Assembly (NCBI GenBank): GCA_012729455.1
Contig: JAAYDC010000014.1
Span: 1-64,000, forward strand
DNA length: 64,000 nucleotides
Direction of reading: 5' to 3'
From: Chloroflexota bacterium
GTDB lineage: Bacteria; Chloroflexota; Anaerolineae; UBA1429
Part shown: positions 17,568 through 23,807 of the stretch, one piece after another
Layout of the letters: each line of letters begins with the position of its first letter
Numbering within the stretch: position 1 is the first letter of the stretch
Notes under the pieces: generated by a model
Seen by the model: only the letters and a program-made list of their open reading frames with translations
Databases searched by the model: none
Told to the model about the DNA's origin: nothing
Program-made: the position numbers and the translations under genes

Positions 17568-18935
17568 ATGACCGACCCGCGTGAAGCCCTGCAACGCCTG
17601 CCGGCGGTCGATCGGACCTTGCAAACACCCGAGGCGGCCGAGCTGACGGACCGCTACGGGCATGCCTGGGTAGTGGCGGCCATCCGTGAGGAACTGGATG
17701 AACAACGCGCGCGTATTCGAGCCGGTGAACCCTCCATCGACCTGAGCGAGTTGGTCGGGCGGGTACGCCAGCGTCTGGCAGAACAGGGCACGCCCAGCCT
17801 GCAGGGCGTGATCAACGCCAGCGGCGTGATCGTGCACACCAACCTGGGGCGCGCACCGCTCTCGACAGCAGCCGCAACGGCGGCGGCAGAGATTGCGGCG
17901 GGCTATTCGAACCTAGAGTACGACCTCCCCGCGGGCAAACGCGGCTCGCGTTATGTGCACGCCCGTGAGCTCCTGACGCGCCTGACGGGTGCGGAAGCAG
18001 CCCTGCTGGTCAACAACAACGCCGCGGCAGTCTTGCTGGCGTTGGCGGGCCTGGCGGCCGGGCGCGAGGTGATCATCTCGCGCGGTCAGTTGGTTGAGAT
18101 CGGCGGCGGGTTTCGCATCCCCGACGTGCTGGCGGCCTCGGGCGCGCAGCTGGTGGAGGTGGGCACTACCAACCGCACCTATGCTGCTGACTATGAACGC
18201 GCCATCACCCCCGATACCGCCCTGATTTTACGGGTGCACCAGAGCAACTTTCGCCAGCAGGGATTTGTGCATCAGGCGGAATTAGCCGAACTGGCTGAGC
18301 TCGCTCACGCCCACGGCCTCGTACTGGTGGATGACCTCGGCAGCGGGACGCTTCTGGATACTGCCCCCTATGGCCTAGTGCACGAGCCCACTGTACAGGA
18401 AAGCCTCGCGGCTGGCGCCGACTTGGTGACATTTTCGGGCGACAAACTGCTGGGCGGACCGCAGGCCGGCATCCTGGTGGGCAAGGCTGAGCTGATTGCC
18501 CGCCTCGAGCATAATCCGCTCACGCGCGCGCTGCGGGTCGACAAAATGGCGATCGCTGCCATGCAGGCAACGTTGCTGCATTATGTGCGGGGTGAGGCAG
18601 AGCGCAAGATCCCTGTGTGGCGCATGCTGGCTGCCAGCGCCGTTGAGCTGGAGGCGCGTTCTGAACGTCTCGCTTCTAGCGTGGGGGCGGCTGGGTGGCA
18701 ACTGCGTGAGGGCCGCTCGATGATCGGCGGCGGCGCGCTGCCCGAAGAGAGCCTGCCGACCAGGCTCCTGGTATGGCCGTATGCTAACCCGCAGGTGCTG
18801 GCAGAGCGCCTGCGCGCCGGCAGCCCGACAGTGCTGGCGCGCGTCGAAGATGGCGCTCTGGTGCTGGACCTGCGCACTGTGCTCCCCGAACAGGAAAGCG
18901 CCCTGGCCGATCGCCTGCGGGCGCTCCTGGGTTAA
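17568..18935 (+). CDS. selA: L-seryl-tRNA(Sec) selenium transferase
   Basis: 455 residues, full length for bacterial SelA. It is a PLP enzyme that converts Ser-tRNA(Sec) to Sec-tRNA(Sec) with selenophosphate. Visible motifs: the N-terminal tRNA-binding part (LPAVDRTLQTPEAAELTDRYG), VINASGVIVHTNLGRAPLS, a PLP region with VNNNAAAVLLAL, SRGQLVEIGGGFRIPD, and the Schiff-base lysine in TFSGDKLLGGPQAG at about residue 293. It follows the ATL gene by 2 bases. selB, selD and the tRNA(Sec) gene are not in the window, but a yedE/tusA selenium pair lies at 53-54 kb. The presence of selA implies that the organism makes selenoproteins. Confidence 0.96.
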   Translation: MTDPREALQRLPAVDRTLQTPEAAELTDRYGHAWVVAAIREELDEQRARIRAGEPSIDLSELVGRVRQRLAEQGTPSLQGVINASGVIVHTNLGRAPLSTAAATAAAEIAAGYSNLEYDLPAGKRGSRYVHARELLTRLTGAEAALLVNNNAAAVLLALAGLAAGREVIISRGQLVEIGGGFRIPDVLAASGAQLVEVGTTNRTYAADYERAITPDTALILRVHQSNFRQQGFVHQAELAELAELAHAHGLVLVDDLGSGTLLDTAPYGLVHEPTVQESLAAGADLVTFSGDKLLGGPQAGILVGKAELIARLEHNPLTRALRVDKMAIAAMQATLLHYVRGEAERKIPVWRMLAASAVELEARSERLASSVGAAGWQLREGRSMIGGGALPEESLPTRLLVWPYANPQVLAERLRAGSPTVLARVEDGALVLDLRTVLPEQESALADRLRALLG

Positions 18936-18948
18936 GCGGGGGCGCTGA

Positions 18949-19440
18949 TCAGGTCTTTTGCACCTCGAGGTTGGCGCCGCAGTTGGGGCATTTGCGCAGA
19001 TCCGAGCGCACCGGCAGCTTGGTGGTACAGTAAGGACACACCTTTTCGGCAATGCTCAGACGCAAGCCGCTGACGACGTATACCGTGCGGTCCTCTCGGT
19101 CTTCGCGCTGAGCCGACCCCTCGCGAACCAGGCCTTCAAGCGTCTGGGCAGCCAGCTGCTGCGGGATCTTGAACTCGGCACGCAGCTGCGCGGCGGTTAC
19201 TTCGCCGCCCAGACGCTGTGCCAGGTTGATAGCTCCCGTGCGCAGCGCCTCGGGGGTAATCTCGGCTAGCCGGCGCAACCGGCGCAGGCCAAAGATCAGC
19301 AAAAACAATCCGATGGCACCCAGTGCCAGAGCCACCCACAAGCGGCTGGGACTCTGGCTGGCGGCGATCAGAAAGAGCACCCCCAGAGTGAGGAATGGGA
19401 TCGCTAGCAGGACGGCTAAGATGGCGGGCAGTTTTCTCAT
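18949..19440 (-). CDS. Small membrane protein with winged-helix-like region and C-terminal zinc ribbon
   Basis: 163 residues. ATG 19440 follows AGGGGAAGAAT. Two hydrophobic helices (about 6-26 and 34-52) are followed by a basic stretch RRLRRLAEI, then a region with helix-turn-helix pattern (AINLAQRLGGEVTAAQLRAEF, LEGLVREGSAQREDRE, TVYVVSG) that reads like a winged helix, and finally CPYC and CPNC, a two-knuckle zinc ribbon at 136-158. It is the last gene of the minus-strand series containing the Cys-repeat protein and radical SAM enzyme, and it ends 13 bases from the convergent selA. Possible role: membrane-tethered accessory or regulator of that system. No family name recognised. Confidence 0.65.
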   Translation of the reverse strand: MRKLPAILAVLLAIPFLTLGVLFLIAASQSPSRLWVALALGAIGLFLLIFGLRRLRRLAEITPEALRTGAINLAQRLGGEVTAAQLRAEFKIPQQLAAQTLEGLVREGSAQREDREDRTVYVVSGLRLSIAEKVCPYCTTKLPVRSDLRKCPNCGANLEVQKT

Positions 19441-19460
19441 ATTCTTCCCCTTGTTCCGGT

Positions 19461-20639
19461 TTACTTCCAGGCTTCCGTCGCTTTATTGAGCGCCACGCCC
19501 ATGTTCTCGAAAAACGCCTTGATAATGTCATCGTTGAGACGGTCAGAAAAGTAGACCTTGACAATCTGGCTGAACTCGAGCGGGTTGGCGCCCAGGTACA
19601 CTTCGTCCTTGACCGCACCTGTCAGCGGCTTCCAGGTCTCGGCCACGTTGACAACCCACTGCGGGATGGCCAACTTGACCTCTGAGAGATTGTAGCGGTT
19701 TTGCTCCTCGACCACGCCGGCCACTGATTTGGCAAAGCGTTCCATGCCCTGCGCAATGCCCTTGGTGAGGCCAAGCGCTTCAGCTACAGACCGCAAGCCC
19801 TCCTCGTAGTTGGTGCGCACCTGGTTGCGGCGTGCCAGATCATCGAGGGCAGTGCCCAGCTCGCCGGCCACCCCGGATGGGCCGTCCAGGTTGGTGAGCA
19901 CGTTGGTGATGCCCTGCTGCTGGGCTAACCCGTCCAGGTTAGCCTGTACAAAGTCGCGCCGTGCCTGAGCCTCAGCCTTGGCAATGCCCTGCTCTTCCCA
20001 CTGCTTGCGCAGCTCAGACTGATGATCAGCGGTCTCAGTGAGCTGTTGCTGCCAGGTATTACGCGTGTTCTGCAACCTGTCTTGCAGCTGCTGGCGCTTC
20101 TTCAGGAGTTTGTTTTGCTGGCTTTTCAGGCTGCTAATTTTAAAGGCGTTGAACAATCCGCCCAAGCCGCGGCGCAGGCTCTCGATCTGCTCATACAAAG
20201 CGGCATAGGCATCCTGTGTAGCCGCCAACTGCTGCTTGAGCTTTTCTTCCGCGTCGTTGAGCTGCGGATTACTGGTCTGGAGCTGGTCTCTGGCCTGCTG
20301 GGCGCGCGCCAGGAGTTGGTCGCTCTCGGCCTGCATCTGTGGGATTTTCTGCTCCAGCTCTGCGAGCTCCTGCTCGAGTTTGGCGTGCTCAATCCGTTCA
20401 GCATCATCGATCTTGATGCGCAAAGCATCCGGCAGCTCACGCCGCTCCGTCAGCACCCTCGGGAAGCAATAGGCAAACTGCTTTTGCCAATCCTCGAGCT
20501 CGCGCTTGAAGATGTCGTTGAACTGCTTTTGGATCTCTTCGGTCTCGCGAAACGCCGCCTTCATCTCGGCCACTTTATCTCGCAGGTATTTATGAAACTG
20601 GGTCAGGGTGAGATGATAGACCTTGTTCGGATCGCTCAT
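19461..20639 (-). CDS. Long coiled-coil protein in the radical SAM operon
   Basis: 392 residues starting MSDPNKVYHLTLTQFHKYLR; the ATG at 20639 has GGAGGCGCT in front, and an upstream extension to 20726 overlaps the radical SAM gene. The N-terminal 70 residues are helical and Lys/Asp-rich; residues 75-230 are a nearly uninterrupted coiled coil rich in Gln, Leu and Glu (HAKLEQELAELEQKIPQMQ, KLLKKRQQLQDRLQNTRN). The last 120 residues (YNLSEVKLAIPQWVVNVAETWKP onward) look globular. No signal peptide or membrane segment, so it is probably cytoplasmic. It lies 25 bases after the radical SAM stop. No family recognised; a scaffold for the Cys-tail membrane protein is a plausible guess. Confidence 0.65.
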   Translation of the reverse strand: MSDPNKVYHLTLTQFHKYLRDKVAEMKAAFRETEEIQKQFNDIFKRELEDWQKQFAYCFPRVLTERRELPDALRIKIDDAERIEHAKLEQELAELEQKIPQMQAESDQLLARAQQARDQLQTSNPQLNDAEEKLKQQLAATQDAYAALYEQIESLRRGLGGLFNAFKISSLKSQQNKLLKKRQQLQDRLQNTRNTWQQQLTETADHQSELRKQWEEQGIAKAEAQARRDFVQANLDGLAQQQGITNVLTNLDGPSGVAGELGTALDDLARRNQVRTNYEEGLRSVAEALGLTKGIAQGMERFAKSVAGVVEEQNRYNLSEVKLAIPQWVVNVAETWKPLTGAVKDEVYLGANPLEFSQIVKVYFSDRLNDDIIKAFFENMGVALNKATEAWK

Positions 20640-20664
20640 GAGCGCCTCCTCAGTACCAAACCAA

Positions 20665-22089
20665 CTAGAGCCCCACTCCGCGTGTACCGGCATGCAGACG
20701 CTTGCGCACCCGCCAACCGAGCGCATGCAGGCGCGAACCGCCGGGGGCTACTGCTGCCAGCTCCTCAAAGCTGCCGCGTTCATCCCAGTAGAGCGGACAT
20801 GCGCCGCAACAGATGTCGCGGATCTGGCAGCGCTGGCAATCAGGCGGGATAAACTCTTTACGGCGCCAGTAGAGCGCGGTGCGGCTGTGCCAGACGGCCT
20901 CAAAACCGTCGTGCAGCAGGTCGCCGATGCCATCCTCAAAGCTGGAACAGGGCAGCAGCTCGCCGGCCGGATTAACGGAAATCAGACCATCCACGCAGGC
21001 GCACGATTTAGCGCCCAAACCAGCTTGCACCGGGTTGAACAGGCAATAGGGCACCGGCGAATACCACACCAGCCGCACGCCCCGCTCCTTGGCGCGCGCC
21101 TGCACGGCCAGGATGTGCTCGCCGATGCTGCTGTAGCGGATGTCATCCTGGGCATGGTCAAGTGCTGTGCCGGTACGGATCACCATGTTCATCGAAAAGT
21201 ACTCGGATTTCAGCTCTTGTGCGATGAAATCGACCAGCTCGAGCAGGTGGTCGCGGTTGCCGCCGCACACCGTGGTGTTGGTGTGGGTATGGATACCGAC
21301 CGCGCGCAAGTTGTGCACCGCCGCCACCGTCTTGACGAACGCTCCAAGATGCTGGGTGATGGCATCGTGCACCTCCGCAGTCGCCCCCTCGAGGCTCACC
21401 TGGGCGGAATCCAGTCCTGCCTCTTTGAGCCTGGCGACGTAGGCTGGGTCGGCACAGGCCAAACCATTGGTGATCAGGTTGACGCGCATGCCCTTGGCTT
21501 TGGCATAAGCCACCAGCTCGGGCAGATCTTCGCGCAGGGTCGGTTCGCCGCCGGTGAACGAGACAGTCGGGCAATGCGCCTCGTCATAGAGCCGATCGAT
21601 CACCAGCATGACCTCGGCGGTATCCATCTCGGGTACCTTGCGGCCGCGCTTGGGGGCGTCCGCATAGCAAAACGTACAGCGATTCTGGCAGCGATAGGTC
21701 AGCGCGATCTCGGAGAGCACCGGCAACTCGCGCTTGTGGCTGCCAAAGGTCGTCTGGCGCACTTTGGGCGCCCCGCATACGTCGTCATTCAGGAGCGCCG
21801 CCACGCTGTACAGGAGCTCTTTCAGGTCAGTACGCACCCGCTCCGGCTCTGCGTGATAGGTTTCACTGATCTCGCTCACCAGTTGCTCGATGCTGGGCGC
21901 ATCAGGCGCATACAATCGGTCAAGCATCAGGGTCGCCATCGGGTTGAGGTGATGGATGCGGTTGGGGCGCAGGATGATCAGGCCATCCTGCGGACGGATA
22001 TAGATATAGGCACGCGTAGATTCAACCAGCTCGCTGGCAAAGCGCTGCAGGTCGAACCCCTGCTGGGTCGTGGTCGAGGTCATGGTCAT
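20665..22089 (-). CDS. Radical SAM/SPASM peptide- or protein-modifying enzyme with N-terminal PqqD-like recognition domain
   Basis: 474 residues from ATG 22089, which overlaps the stop of the DUF2207 gene as TGATG. A longer upstream frame is only the Cys-repeat read out of phase. Residues 11-100 fit a PqqD-like RiPP recognition element (LIILRPNRIHHLNPMATLML, ERVRTDLKELLYSVAALL). The radical SAM core has YRCQNRCTFCYAD with the cluster cysteines C134, C138 and C141, and SFTGGEPTLRED at about 180. The SPASM region has C349, C363, C365, C381 and the cluster CQRCQIRDICCGACPLYW (418-435), enough for auxiliary iron-sulfur clusters. Enzymes of this layout (PqqE, sactipeptide and related maturases) modify ribosomal peptides or proteins. 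The directly coupled upstream gene ends in a Cys repeat, the obvious candidate substrate. The reaction is not known. Confidence 0.9.
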   Translation of the reverse strand: MTMTSTTTQQGFDLQRFASELVESTRAYIYIRPQDGLIILRPNRIHHLNPMATLMLDRLYAPDAPSIEQLVSEISETYHAEPERVRTDLKELLYSVAALLNDDVCGAPKVRQTTFGSHKRELPVLSEIALTYRCQNRCTFCYADAPKRGRKVPEMDTAEVMLVIDRLYDEAHCPTVSFTGGEPTLREDLPELVAYAKAKGMRVNLITNGLACADPAYVARLKEAGLDSAQVSLEGATAEVHDAITQHLGAFVKTVAAVHNLRAVGIHTHTNTTVCGGNRDHLLELVDFIAQELKSEYFSMNMVIRTGTALDHAQDDIRYSSIGEHILAVQARAKERGVRLVWYSPVPYCLFNPVQAGLGAKSCACVDGLISVNPAGELLPCSSFEDGIGDLLHDGFEAVWHSRTALYWRRKEFIPPDCQRCQIRDICCGACPLYWDERGSFEELAAVAPGGSRLHALGWRVRKRLHAGTRGVGL

Positions 22090-23807
22090 CAGACGCTGCT
22101 CACACAGGCACTGTGGCAGGCGCTGTGGCAGGCGCTGTGGCACACGCAGGCACTGTGGCAGGCGCTGTGACAGGCATCGTGCACGCAGGCCGAGTGGCAG
22201 GCGTCGTGCACGCAAGCCGAGTGACAGGCGCTGTGGCAGGCACTATGGCAGGCGTCATAGCCGGCCACTTCGCCCGTACCGCCGCCAAAGAGCTGGCTGA
22301 TGGTGGACTCGACAGAGGCCACCGTACCGCTGACGGTCTTTTCAATGCTCGAGGTGACGTTCTGCGCCAGCGATTCAAAGGGCGCTATGGCCGTGCCGGC
22401 GCCGCGCTCGAGCGGCGAGGGAATGTGCGGGCCGCCGCCACTGCTGCTGCTCATCGGGCGGTTCGCAAGGATCACCCAAGGAGCATAGTCGGGCAGCGGG
22501 GCGTTGGCCGGCCGCAGGGTCGACTCGCGCTGCCAGTCTTCCCAGGCAGTATCGATGCGCCGGCGATAGGTCTCGCGGGTGGCCGCCGGGTCGGCGTTCC
22601 ACATCTTGGGCTGCACCGCCGATGCCACCGCGCTGAGCACCGCACTGATACCCGCCTTGTCGAGCGTGCCGTCTTCCTGCACACCGCTGACCAGTACGCG
22701 CTCGTACTCGGCCATCTCGGCATCGGGTTTCAGGATCTCGAGCTGCAGCGGCATATGGTTGACGATGTTGACAATGCCGCGCTGTTCGAGCCCCAGCACG
22801 ATCAGCGAAATGGTCTTGGCTGTGTTACCCATCAGGAAAGCGGCCTCGATGGCGTTCAGATCCGGCACTACCCCGGGCGTCTGAAAGGTCTCGATCTCGA
22901 TTTCGGGCGAGGCGTATTCTTCAAGCTTGGGCTTGGGCTTTTTCAGGAGCGTGATCACCAGCAAGACCAGCACCAGCACGGTGATCGGCACGCCCACGCA
23001 GCAGACTGTGCCGAGGGCTTCCGGATCGCGCAGGACGCCGATCAGGCTGGTATCTGAGGGGGTGGCTGTATTGAGCGGGATAGGCGTCTCTTTGGTGGTG
23101 CTGATCAGCGATGCCGGCAGATAAAAGCGCGGGATCATCTCTTCCTGCGGAGCCAGGTTATCTTTGCGCACCAGGAACGACAGCCATACCTTGCCGGTGG
23201 TCTCATCGGGAGTGGGAAAGAAGACCCAGCGGTCAAAGCTCTCGGGGTCAACGGTGATGATGCCGCTGCCATCCACCAGCTCATCCGTCACCTGTTCGGG
23301 CGTCGTCACATCGGCGGACAGCTCAAACGGCAGAATATAGGTGATCTCCTGGCGCTGGATCGGCAGGCTCCAAGCAAAGGGAGCCCAGCCGATCGCCACC
23401 AGGTCCTGGCCCTGATAGCTGGTGGGATCAAACACCGACCGGTCGATAGTATAGTGAATCAGCACCTTGTAATGCTGGTTGCGCTGCGTGCGAATATCAA
23501 AGTTCAGCTGGTAGTAGGGCGCAGAACCGCTCAGATTGCCGCCGAACGGGCCATCCGGGCCTTCGCCGGATACCTCGACAATCACTGCATCCGATTCAAA
23601 GGGACCTACCGCGCGAAAGCGGTTGCGGCCGTCTTCGTGTTCGGTAAAGGTGAGTGTGTATTTAACGTCCAGCCGCCCATCCGCCAGCACCACCACGTAG
23701 GATTCGACGAGGTCGAGCGTGACTGGATCAGCCGCCAGGCTCACTATCGGCACCTGGAGCATCAGCAGCACAAGCACTGCAAGCACAACGCGTGCGATTC
23801 GACGCAT
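22089..23807 (-). CDS. DUF2207-family membrane protein with a C-terminal Cys-His-Ser-Ala repeat tail
   Basis: 572 residues. GGAGGT five bases before ATG 23807; the start is 10 bases after the WecG-like stop. Signal peptide about 1-26 (VVLAVLVLLMLQVPIVSLAA), extracytoplasmic DUF2207-type beta domain 27-245 (VESYVVVLADGRLDVKYTLT, YYQLNFDIRTQ, IHYTIDRSVF), one TM helix at about 267-288, then a cytoplasmic helical part including EAAFLMGNTAKTISLIVLGLEQRG, usual for the family. A Ser/Gly-rich linker leads to the unusual end: residues 518-572 are built of CHSA units, with 13 Cys, nine HSA and two VHDA inserts. By the inside-out topology the tail faces the cytoplasm, where the coupled radical SAM enzyme could reach it. 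DUF2207 function itself is unknown. Confidence 0.85.
   Translation of the reverse strand: MRRIARVVLAVLVLLMLQVPIVSLAADPVTLDLVESYVVVLADGRLDVKYTLTFTEHEDGRNRFRAVGPFESDAVIVEVSGEGPDGPFGGNLSGSAPYYQLNFDIRTQRNQHYKVLIHYTIDRSVFDPTSYQGQDLVAIGWAPFAWSLPIQRQEITYILPFELSADVTTPEQVTDELVDGSGIITVDPESFDRWVFFPTPDETTGKVWLSFLVRKDNLAPQEEMIPRFYLPASLISTTKETPIPLNTATPSDTSLIGVLRDPEALGTVCCVGVPITVLVLVLLVITLLKKPKPKLEEYASPEIEIETFQTPGVVPDLNAIEAAFLMGNTAKTISLIVLGLEQRGIVNIVNHMPLQLEILKPDAEMAEYERVLVSGVQEDGTLDKAGISAVLSAVASAVQPKMWNADPAATRETYRRRIDTAWEDWQRESTLRPANAPLPDYAPWVILANRPMSSSSGGGPHIPSPLERGAGTAIAPFESLAQNVTSSIEKTVSGTVASVESTISQLFGGGTGEVAGYDACHSACHSACHSACVHDACHSACVHDACHSACHSACVCHSACHSACHSACVSSV
22092..22256 (-). repeat. Degenerate 12-bp tandem repeat encoding the CHSA tail
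   Basis: On the coding strand the unit is about GCC TGC CAC AGC (Ala-Cys-His-Ser), repeated in three blocks separated by two Val-His-Asp-Ala units (GTG CAC GAC) and one Val-Cys step. Synonymous differences are few (CAC/CAT, AGC/AGT, TCG), which suggests expansion by slippage or unequal exchange and possible copy-number variation between strains. The read length needed to span it is only 165 bases, but assembly errors are possible. Confidence 0.9.

Follow-up and report, generated by a model that had tools for sequence, protein, structure and literature searches.

A radical SAM enzyme paired with the cysteine-repeat tail of a membrane protein in Chloroflexota and some archaea

We examined four minus-strand genes in a Chloroflexota bacterium (assembly GCA_012729455.1, contig JAAYDC010000014.1, positions 1 to 64,000; this 64,000-nucleotide stretch is referred to as the window). 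An earlier note had described them as a DUF2207 protein ending in 55 residues of CHSA repeats with 13 Cys, a radical SAM enzyme with a PqqD-like domain and a SPASM region, a coiled-coil protein, and a membrane/zinc-ribbon protein. All four open reading frames were confirmed, and the first two overlap as TGATG. The features of the locus are as follows.

22089..23807, minus strand: DUF2207-like single-pass membrane protein (572 aa) with a signal peptide, an outer beta-sandwich domain, one TM, a cytosolic domain, a disordered linker and a Cys tail; putative substrate.
22092..22256, minus strand: CHSA-repeat tail, residues 518-572 of the membrane protein, with 13 Cys; putative modification site.
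20665..22089, minus strand: RRE(PqqD)-radical SAM-SPASM enzyme (474 aa) with a C134xxxC138xxC141 motif and SPASM Cys 363/381/418/421/427/431; putative tail-modifying enzyme.
21811..22010, minus strand: PqqD/RRE winged-helix domain of the enzyme, at about residues 27-93.
19461..20639, minus strand: coiled-coil cytosolic protein (392 aa) without a predicted TM, a conserved partner in CHSA operons.
18949..19440, minus strand: two-TM protein (163 aa) with a MarR-like winged-helix stretch and a C-terminal zinc ribbon, a conserved partner in CHSA operons.

The tail itself reads DACHSACHSACHSACVHDACHSACVHDACHSACHSACVCHSACHSACHSACVSSV and contains 13 Cys, while only 2 Cys occur in the other 517 residues of the protein. 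Two of the labels in the earlier note require qualification. The DUF2207 label may be right, at family level only, as the window protein itself hits no Pfam family, although PF09972 is recovered in 9 of 16 homologs (best E 2.7e-6). The zinc ribbon of the fourth protein falls below the Pfam cut-off (23.9 of 27 bits), but the CPxC...CPxC motif and a two-helix membrane hairpin are present, and the four Cys are invariant in its homologs. A SelA-like gene (selenocysteine synthesis; 17568-18935, plus strand) ends next to the operon and is convergent with it. A 515-aa open frame (20623-22170, plus strand) also lies antisense over the enzyme gene and is most likely a by-product of high G+C coding sequence.

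The three domains of the enzyme are all recovered above the Pfam cut-offs: PqqD (PF05402, 2.8e-7, 31.2 bits against 23.4), Radical_SAM (PF04055, 6e-28) and SPASM (PF13186, 3e-5, 24.5 bits against 21.5). C134, C138 and C141 of the CxxxCxxC core are invariant in alignments of 26 and 29 rows, as are C363, G376, C381, C418, C421, C427 and C431 of the SPASM motif (CX9-15GX4C ... CX2CX5CX3C). An AF2 model of the enzyme (pLDDT 81.5) begins with a winged-helix RRE of three strands followed by helices, where pLDDT is mostly near 90, and its best PDB matches are the RiPP maturases SkfB, SuiB and CteB. A profile search against the PDB likewise returned SkfB first, followed by PqqE. This RRE-AdoMet radical-Twitch layout is exactly that described for the sactisynthase SkfB, and a substrate Cys has been stated to bind the open site of auxiliary cluster I in CteB (PMC6231123).

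In the membrane protein, one TM was predicted at residues 270-288 after a signal peptide. The positive residues that follow it (KKPKPK) support a cytosolic placement of the tail, where a radical SAM enzyme must act. AF2 gave ordered outer and cytosolic domains, while residues 491-565 were disordered, as expected of a radical SAM substrate before modification. A PDB sequence search with the membrane protein gave no match. A fold search gave only partial beta-domain matches (TM-score about 0.24), in which the outer domain resembles the N-terminal beta domain of M1 aminopeptidases, and these were not informative on function.

Interestingly, the tail is not a chance repeat. In 60 related genomes, 20 others carry the enzyme at 58-77% identity, next to the same tail wherever the contig reaches it. 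A scan of one genome per species with patterns taken from the cytosolic domain (PEIEIETF, PKMWNADP), and not from the tail, found 36 loci, and all 32 with an intact C terminus end in the CHSA tail. Not only the motif but also the number of repeats and the interruptions (VHDA, VC) are kept. Mean pairwise identity over 29 homologs is 0.949 in the tail, 0.327 in the linker just before it, 0.455 in the outer domain and 0.578 in the cytosolic domain. Of the 32 tails, 31 have different DNA sequences and synonymous sites are near-saturated (pS about 0.78), so the residue sequence is held by selection and not by recent copying. The corresponding pN value is inflated by AGY/TCN Ser switches and by one-column shifts in tails lacking the VC step, so only pS and residue identity were used. 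A stand-alone CHSA-like peptide in one genome proved to be a CWSA run on the antisense strand of a Thr/Pro-rich open reading frame, an artefact.

The enzyme also tracks the tail protein. In 400 Chloroflexota genomes drawn evenly, the enzyme family (E up to 1e-45) was found in 30 and the tail protein (E up to 1e-10) in 29. All 29 have both, none has only the tail protein, 370 have neither, and the one enzyme-only genome holds the second, shorter paralogue (Fisher p about 3e-43, not corrected for the relatedness of the genomes). Where a tail locus lacked the enzyme, it was found elsewhere in the same genome in five of five cases, four of which are contig ends and one of which is a case of separated genes. 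In two archaeal genomes the enzyme stands apart and the tail protein lies 4 kb or about 30 kb away, while a further genome (G452) has a tail protein and only a partial, weaker enzyme match at a contig start. Co-occurrence of this kind shows functional coupling, but not the reaction.

The system is wider than the earlier note had seen. Enzymes of 31-36% identity in other Anaerolineae follow a homologous membrane protein (profile-profile probability 99.8, E 6e-29) with the tail CACACACACAGCACACAGGGR, here called the CACA type. In archaea, more distant enzymes pair with homologous membrane proteins ending in SCACVSCACACACVSCACACAGGG. More specifically, in an archaeal phylum, 22 of 29 genomes outside the two CHSA ones hold an enzyme at 33-40% identity, and the adjacent protein, where seen, ends in SCACVSCACACACVSCACACAGGGVG or close to it. 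A maximum-likelihood tree places the enzymes in clades that match the tail type, with support of 100/100 for CHSA and 96/84 for the archaeal type, although the CACA enzymes lie on one side of a branch that is only weakly supported (82/49). Two archaeal MAG contigs (G+C 44 and 48%) have CHSA tails and CHSA-clade enzymes although their phylum mostly has the other type; the tail follows the enzyme and not the host. One Chloroflexota genome outside the class (G069) holds one pair of each type, CHSA and CACA, though it is 8% contaminated. A contig labelled Propionibacteriaceae (Actinomycetota) carries a complete CHSA operon nested among Chloroflexota in the enzyme tree, which reflects either transfer or mis-binning. 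Most of these genomes are MAGs, and both the archaeal and the Propionibacteriaceae assignments could be binning errors.

The coiled-coil and zinc-ribbon genes are kept in the CHSA operon, and the archaeal CHSA loci have the order enzyme, coiled coil, tail protein. Upstream of the CHSA-type enzyme in one archaeal genome (G447; locus L160, 3857-4786, minus strand) lies a partial 310-aa protein with 34 Cys in CPTGAKCPTGANC-like repeats and a C-terminal TM helix, a possible second Cys-repeat partner. The two helper proteins proposed in the earlier note hold for the CHSA branch only. CACA operons have a different zinc-ribbon membrane protein, commonly a second, shorter PqqD-rSAM paralogue lacking the SPASM end, and a SAM-dependent methyltransferase, the latter two recurring downstream; some copies of the paralogue show in-frame stops in the search output. 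The two zinc-ribbon proteins share only a 21-column TM match, so only their architecture is shared.

The earlier note inferred that the cytoplasmic tail is the substrate of the enzyme, and this is supported by our results: no tail without the enzyme was found in the 400 genomes, and the enzyme was not seen next to unrelated substrates; three enzyme clades each pair with a homologous DUF2207-like protein carrying its own Cys tail. Therefore, we consider it probable, although no mass data bear on it, that the pair is a post-translational modification system acting on a membrane-anchored protein. In this model, the DUF2207-like protein is inserted with its outer domain outside and its unstructured tail in the cytosol. 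The enzyme, translated from the overlapping next gene, would dock the substrate through its RRE domain and work along the tail. A 5'-deoxyadenosyl radical would abstract hydrogen from residues between the Cys while the auxiliary SPASM cluster binds the Cys thiolate, giving several Cys sulfur-to-carbon (thioether) crosslinks and a rigid, polycyclic tail that stays tethered to the membrane. The coiled-coil and zinc-ribbon membrane proteins probably help present or use the tail. That the tail is the substrate, that thioethers are the product and that the tail is not released are all inferred. Thioether chemistry is favored because Cys is the only residue kept in all three tail types and the nearest characterized enzymes make thioethers. 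However, the SPASM-family match says nothing about the bond formed, and CHSA and CACA tails share Cys but neither the same spacing nor the same acceptor residue, so one common thioether acceptor is not obvious and acceptors may differ.

It is possible, though less likely, that the enzyme modifies the tail by other means, such as Cys oxidation, epimerization, C-C crosslinks or desaturation, leaving thiols free for metal binding. Enzymes of this fold make many bonds, including C-C bonds (SuiB), cyclopropanes (TvgB, PMC9062424) and oxidized Cys (anSME), and SuiB, anSME and TigE are among the fold matches, while CHSA keeps a His next to Cys that is suited to metal binding. Nevertheless, the closest sequence and fold match is the sactisynthase SkfB. 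We regard as unlikely an unmodified metal, Fe-S binding or redox tail with an enzyme that makes a cofactor or signal in the same pathway. The 13 Cys and 12 His in 55 residues, the zinc-ribbon partners, and the methyltransferase and second rSAM of CACA operons are consistent with it, but the RRE domain points to a peptide or protein substrate, tail type switches together with enzyme clade, and the two-gene unit moves between domains of life while other neighbors change. The metal or cluster binding suggested in the earlier note is not established.

Release of the tail as a ribosomal peptide product, with the DUF2207-like part as a mere carrier, is more doubtful still. RRE enzymes normally act on precursor peptides that are later cleaved, but no peptidase or exporter recurs in the operons, the 500-residue carrier is itself conserved at 46-58%, and the tail is near-invariant across species, unlike diversifying antimicrobial peptides. 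Low-complexity C termini may be frequent in DUF2207-like proteins, yet an accidental association with an ordinary repeat is contradicted by the conservation and co-occurrence described above. Heme c attachment (CHSACH contains CX3CH) was rejected because the CACA and archaeal tails have no His and the tail is predicted to be cytosolic. A small-molecule enzyme of the heme or PQQ type was likewise rejected, as the best NCBIfam scores, to AhbD, NirJ2 and PqqE, are far below cut-off and an RRE is fused.

Nearly all known radical SAM RiPP maturases act on peptides that are cut off and released, whereas here a co-inherited enzyme seems to rebuild the end of a housekeeping-like membrane protein. The 13-Cys tail is one of the most conserved 50-residue stretches one could expect outside core machinery, yet in the open-access literature searched, which cannot prove absence, no paper joins DUF2207 and radical SAM or prints a CHSACHSA sequence in a protein context. 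We consider it about as likely as not that these pairs represent a so far undescribed class of radical SAM protein maturation shared by bacteria and archaea, in which the invariant tail becomes a polycyclic thioether (or other Cys-derived) structure that stays as a permanent part of the membrane, for example as a redox or metal device. Such a system would also give a first handle on what the widespread DUF2207-like proteins do, and the three matched tail/enzyme clades offer a ready comparison for how such enzymes read Cys spacing.

Sactipeptide and ranthipeptide maturases (SkfB, AlbA, CteB, PapB) likewise combine RRE, radical SAM and SPASM/Twitch domains beside a Cys-rich target. Their targets are small precursor peptides that are released, while here the target would be the C terminus of a 572-residue membrane protein; 31-36% identity already separates the branches, and no NCBIfam maturase cut-off is reached. 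QhpD is a radical SAM/SPASM enzyme that makes several intra-protein thioethers on a protein, QhpC of quinohemoprotein amine dehydrogenase (PMC8172795), but QhpC is a soluble enzyme subunit with scattered Cys-Glu/Asp bridges and has no repeat tail or membrane anchor. In the TvgA/TvgB (TVGG), ACGX (TIGR04340) and CXXX systems, one rSAM-SPASM enzyme lies beside a substrate made of a short repeated motif (PMC9062424). Those substrates are peptides, and our enzyme scores 91.6 bits against the TIGR04340 cut-off of 400. Finally, TIGR04222 multi-domain membrane proteins with Cys-rich low-complexity C termini have been proposed as substrates of MNIO enzymes (PMC12452194). The match here is weak (16.2 bits, and 19.4 bits in an archaeal homolog, against a cut-off of 43), and no MNIO gene was recognized among the operon genes, although no MNIO profile was run. 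The TIGR04222 tails are Ser/Gly-rich and predicted on the outer side, and the proteins have several TMs and occur mostly in Actinomycetota. The pairs described here would provide a partner to that proposal, with two unrelated enzyme chemistries converging on Cys-rich tails of membrane proteins.
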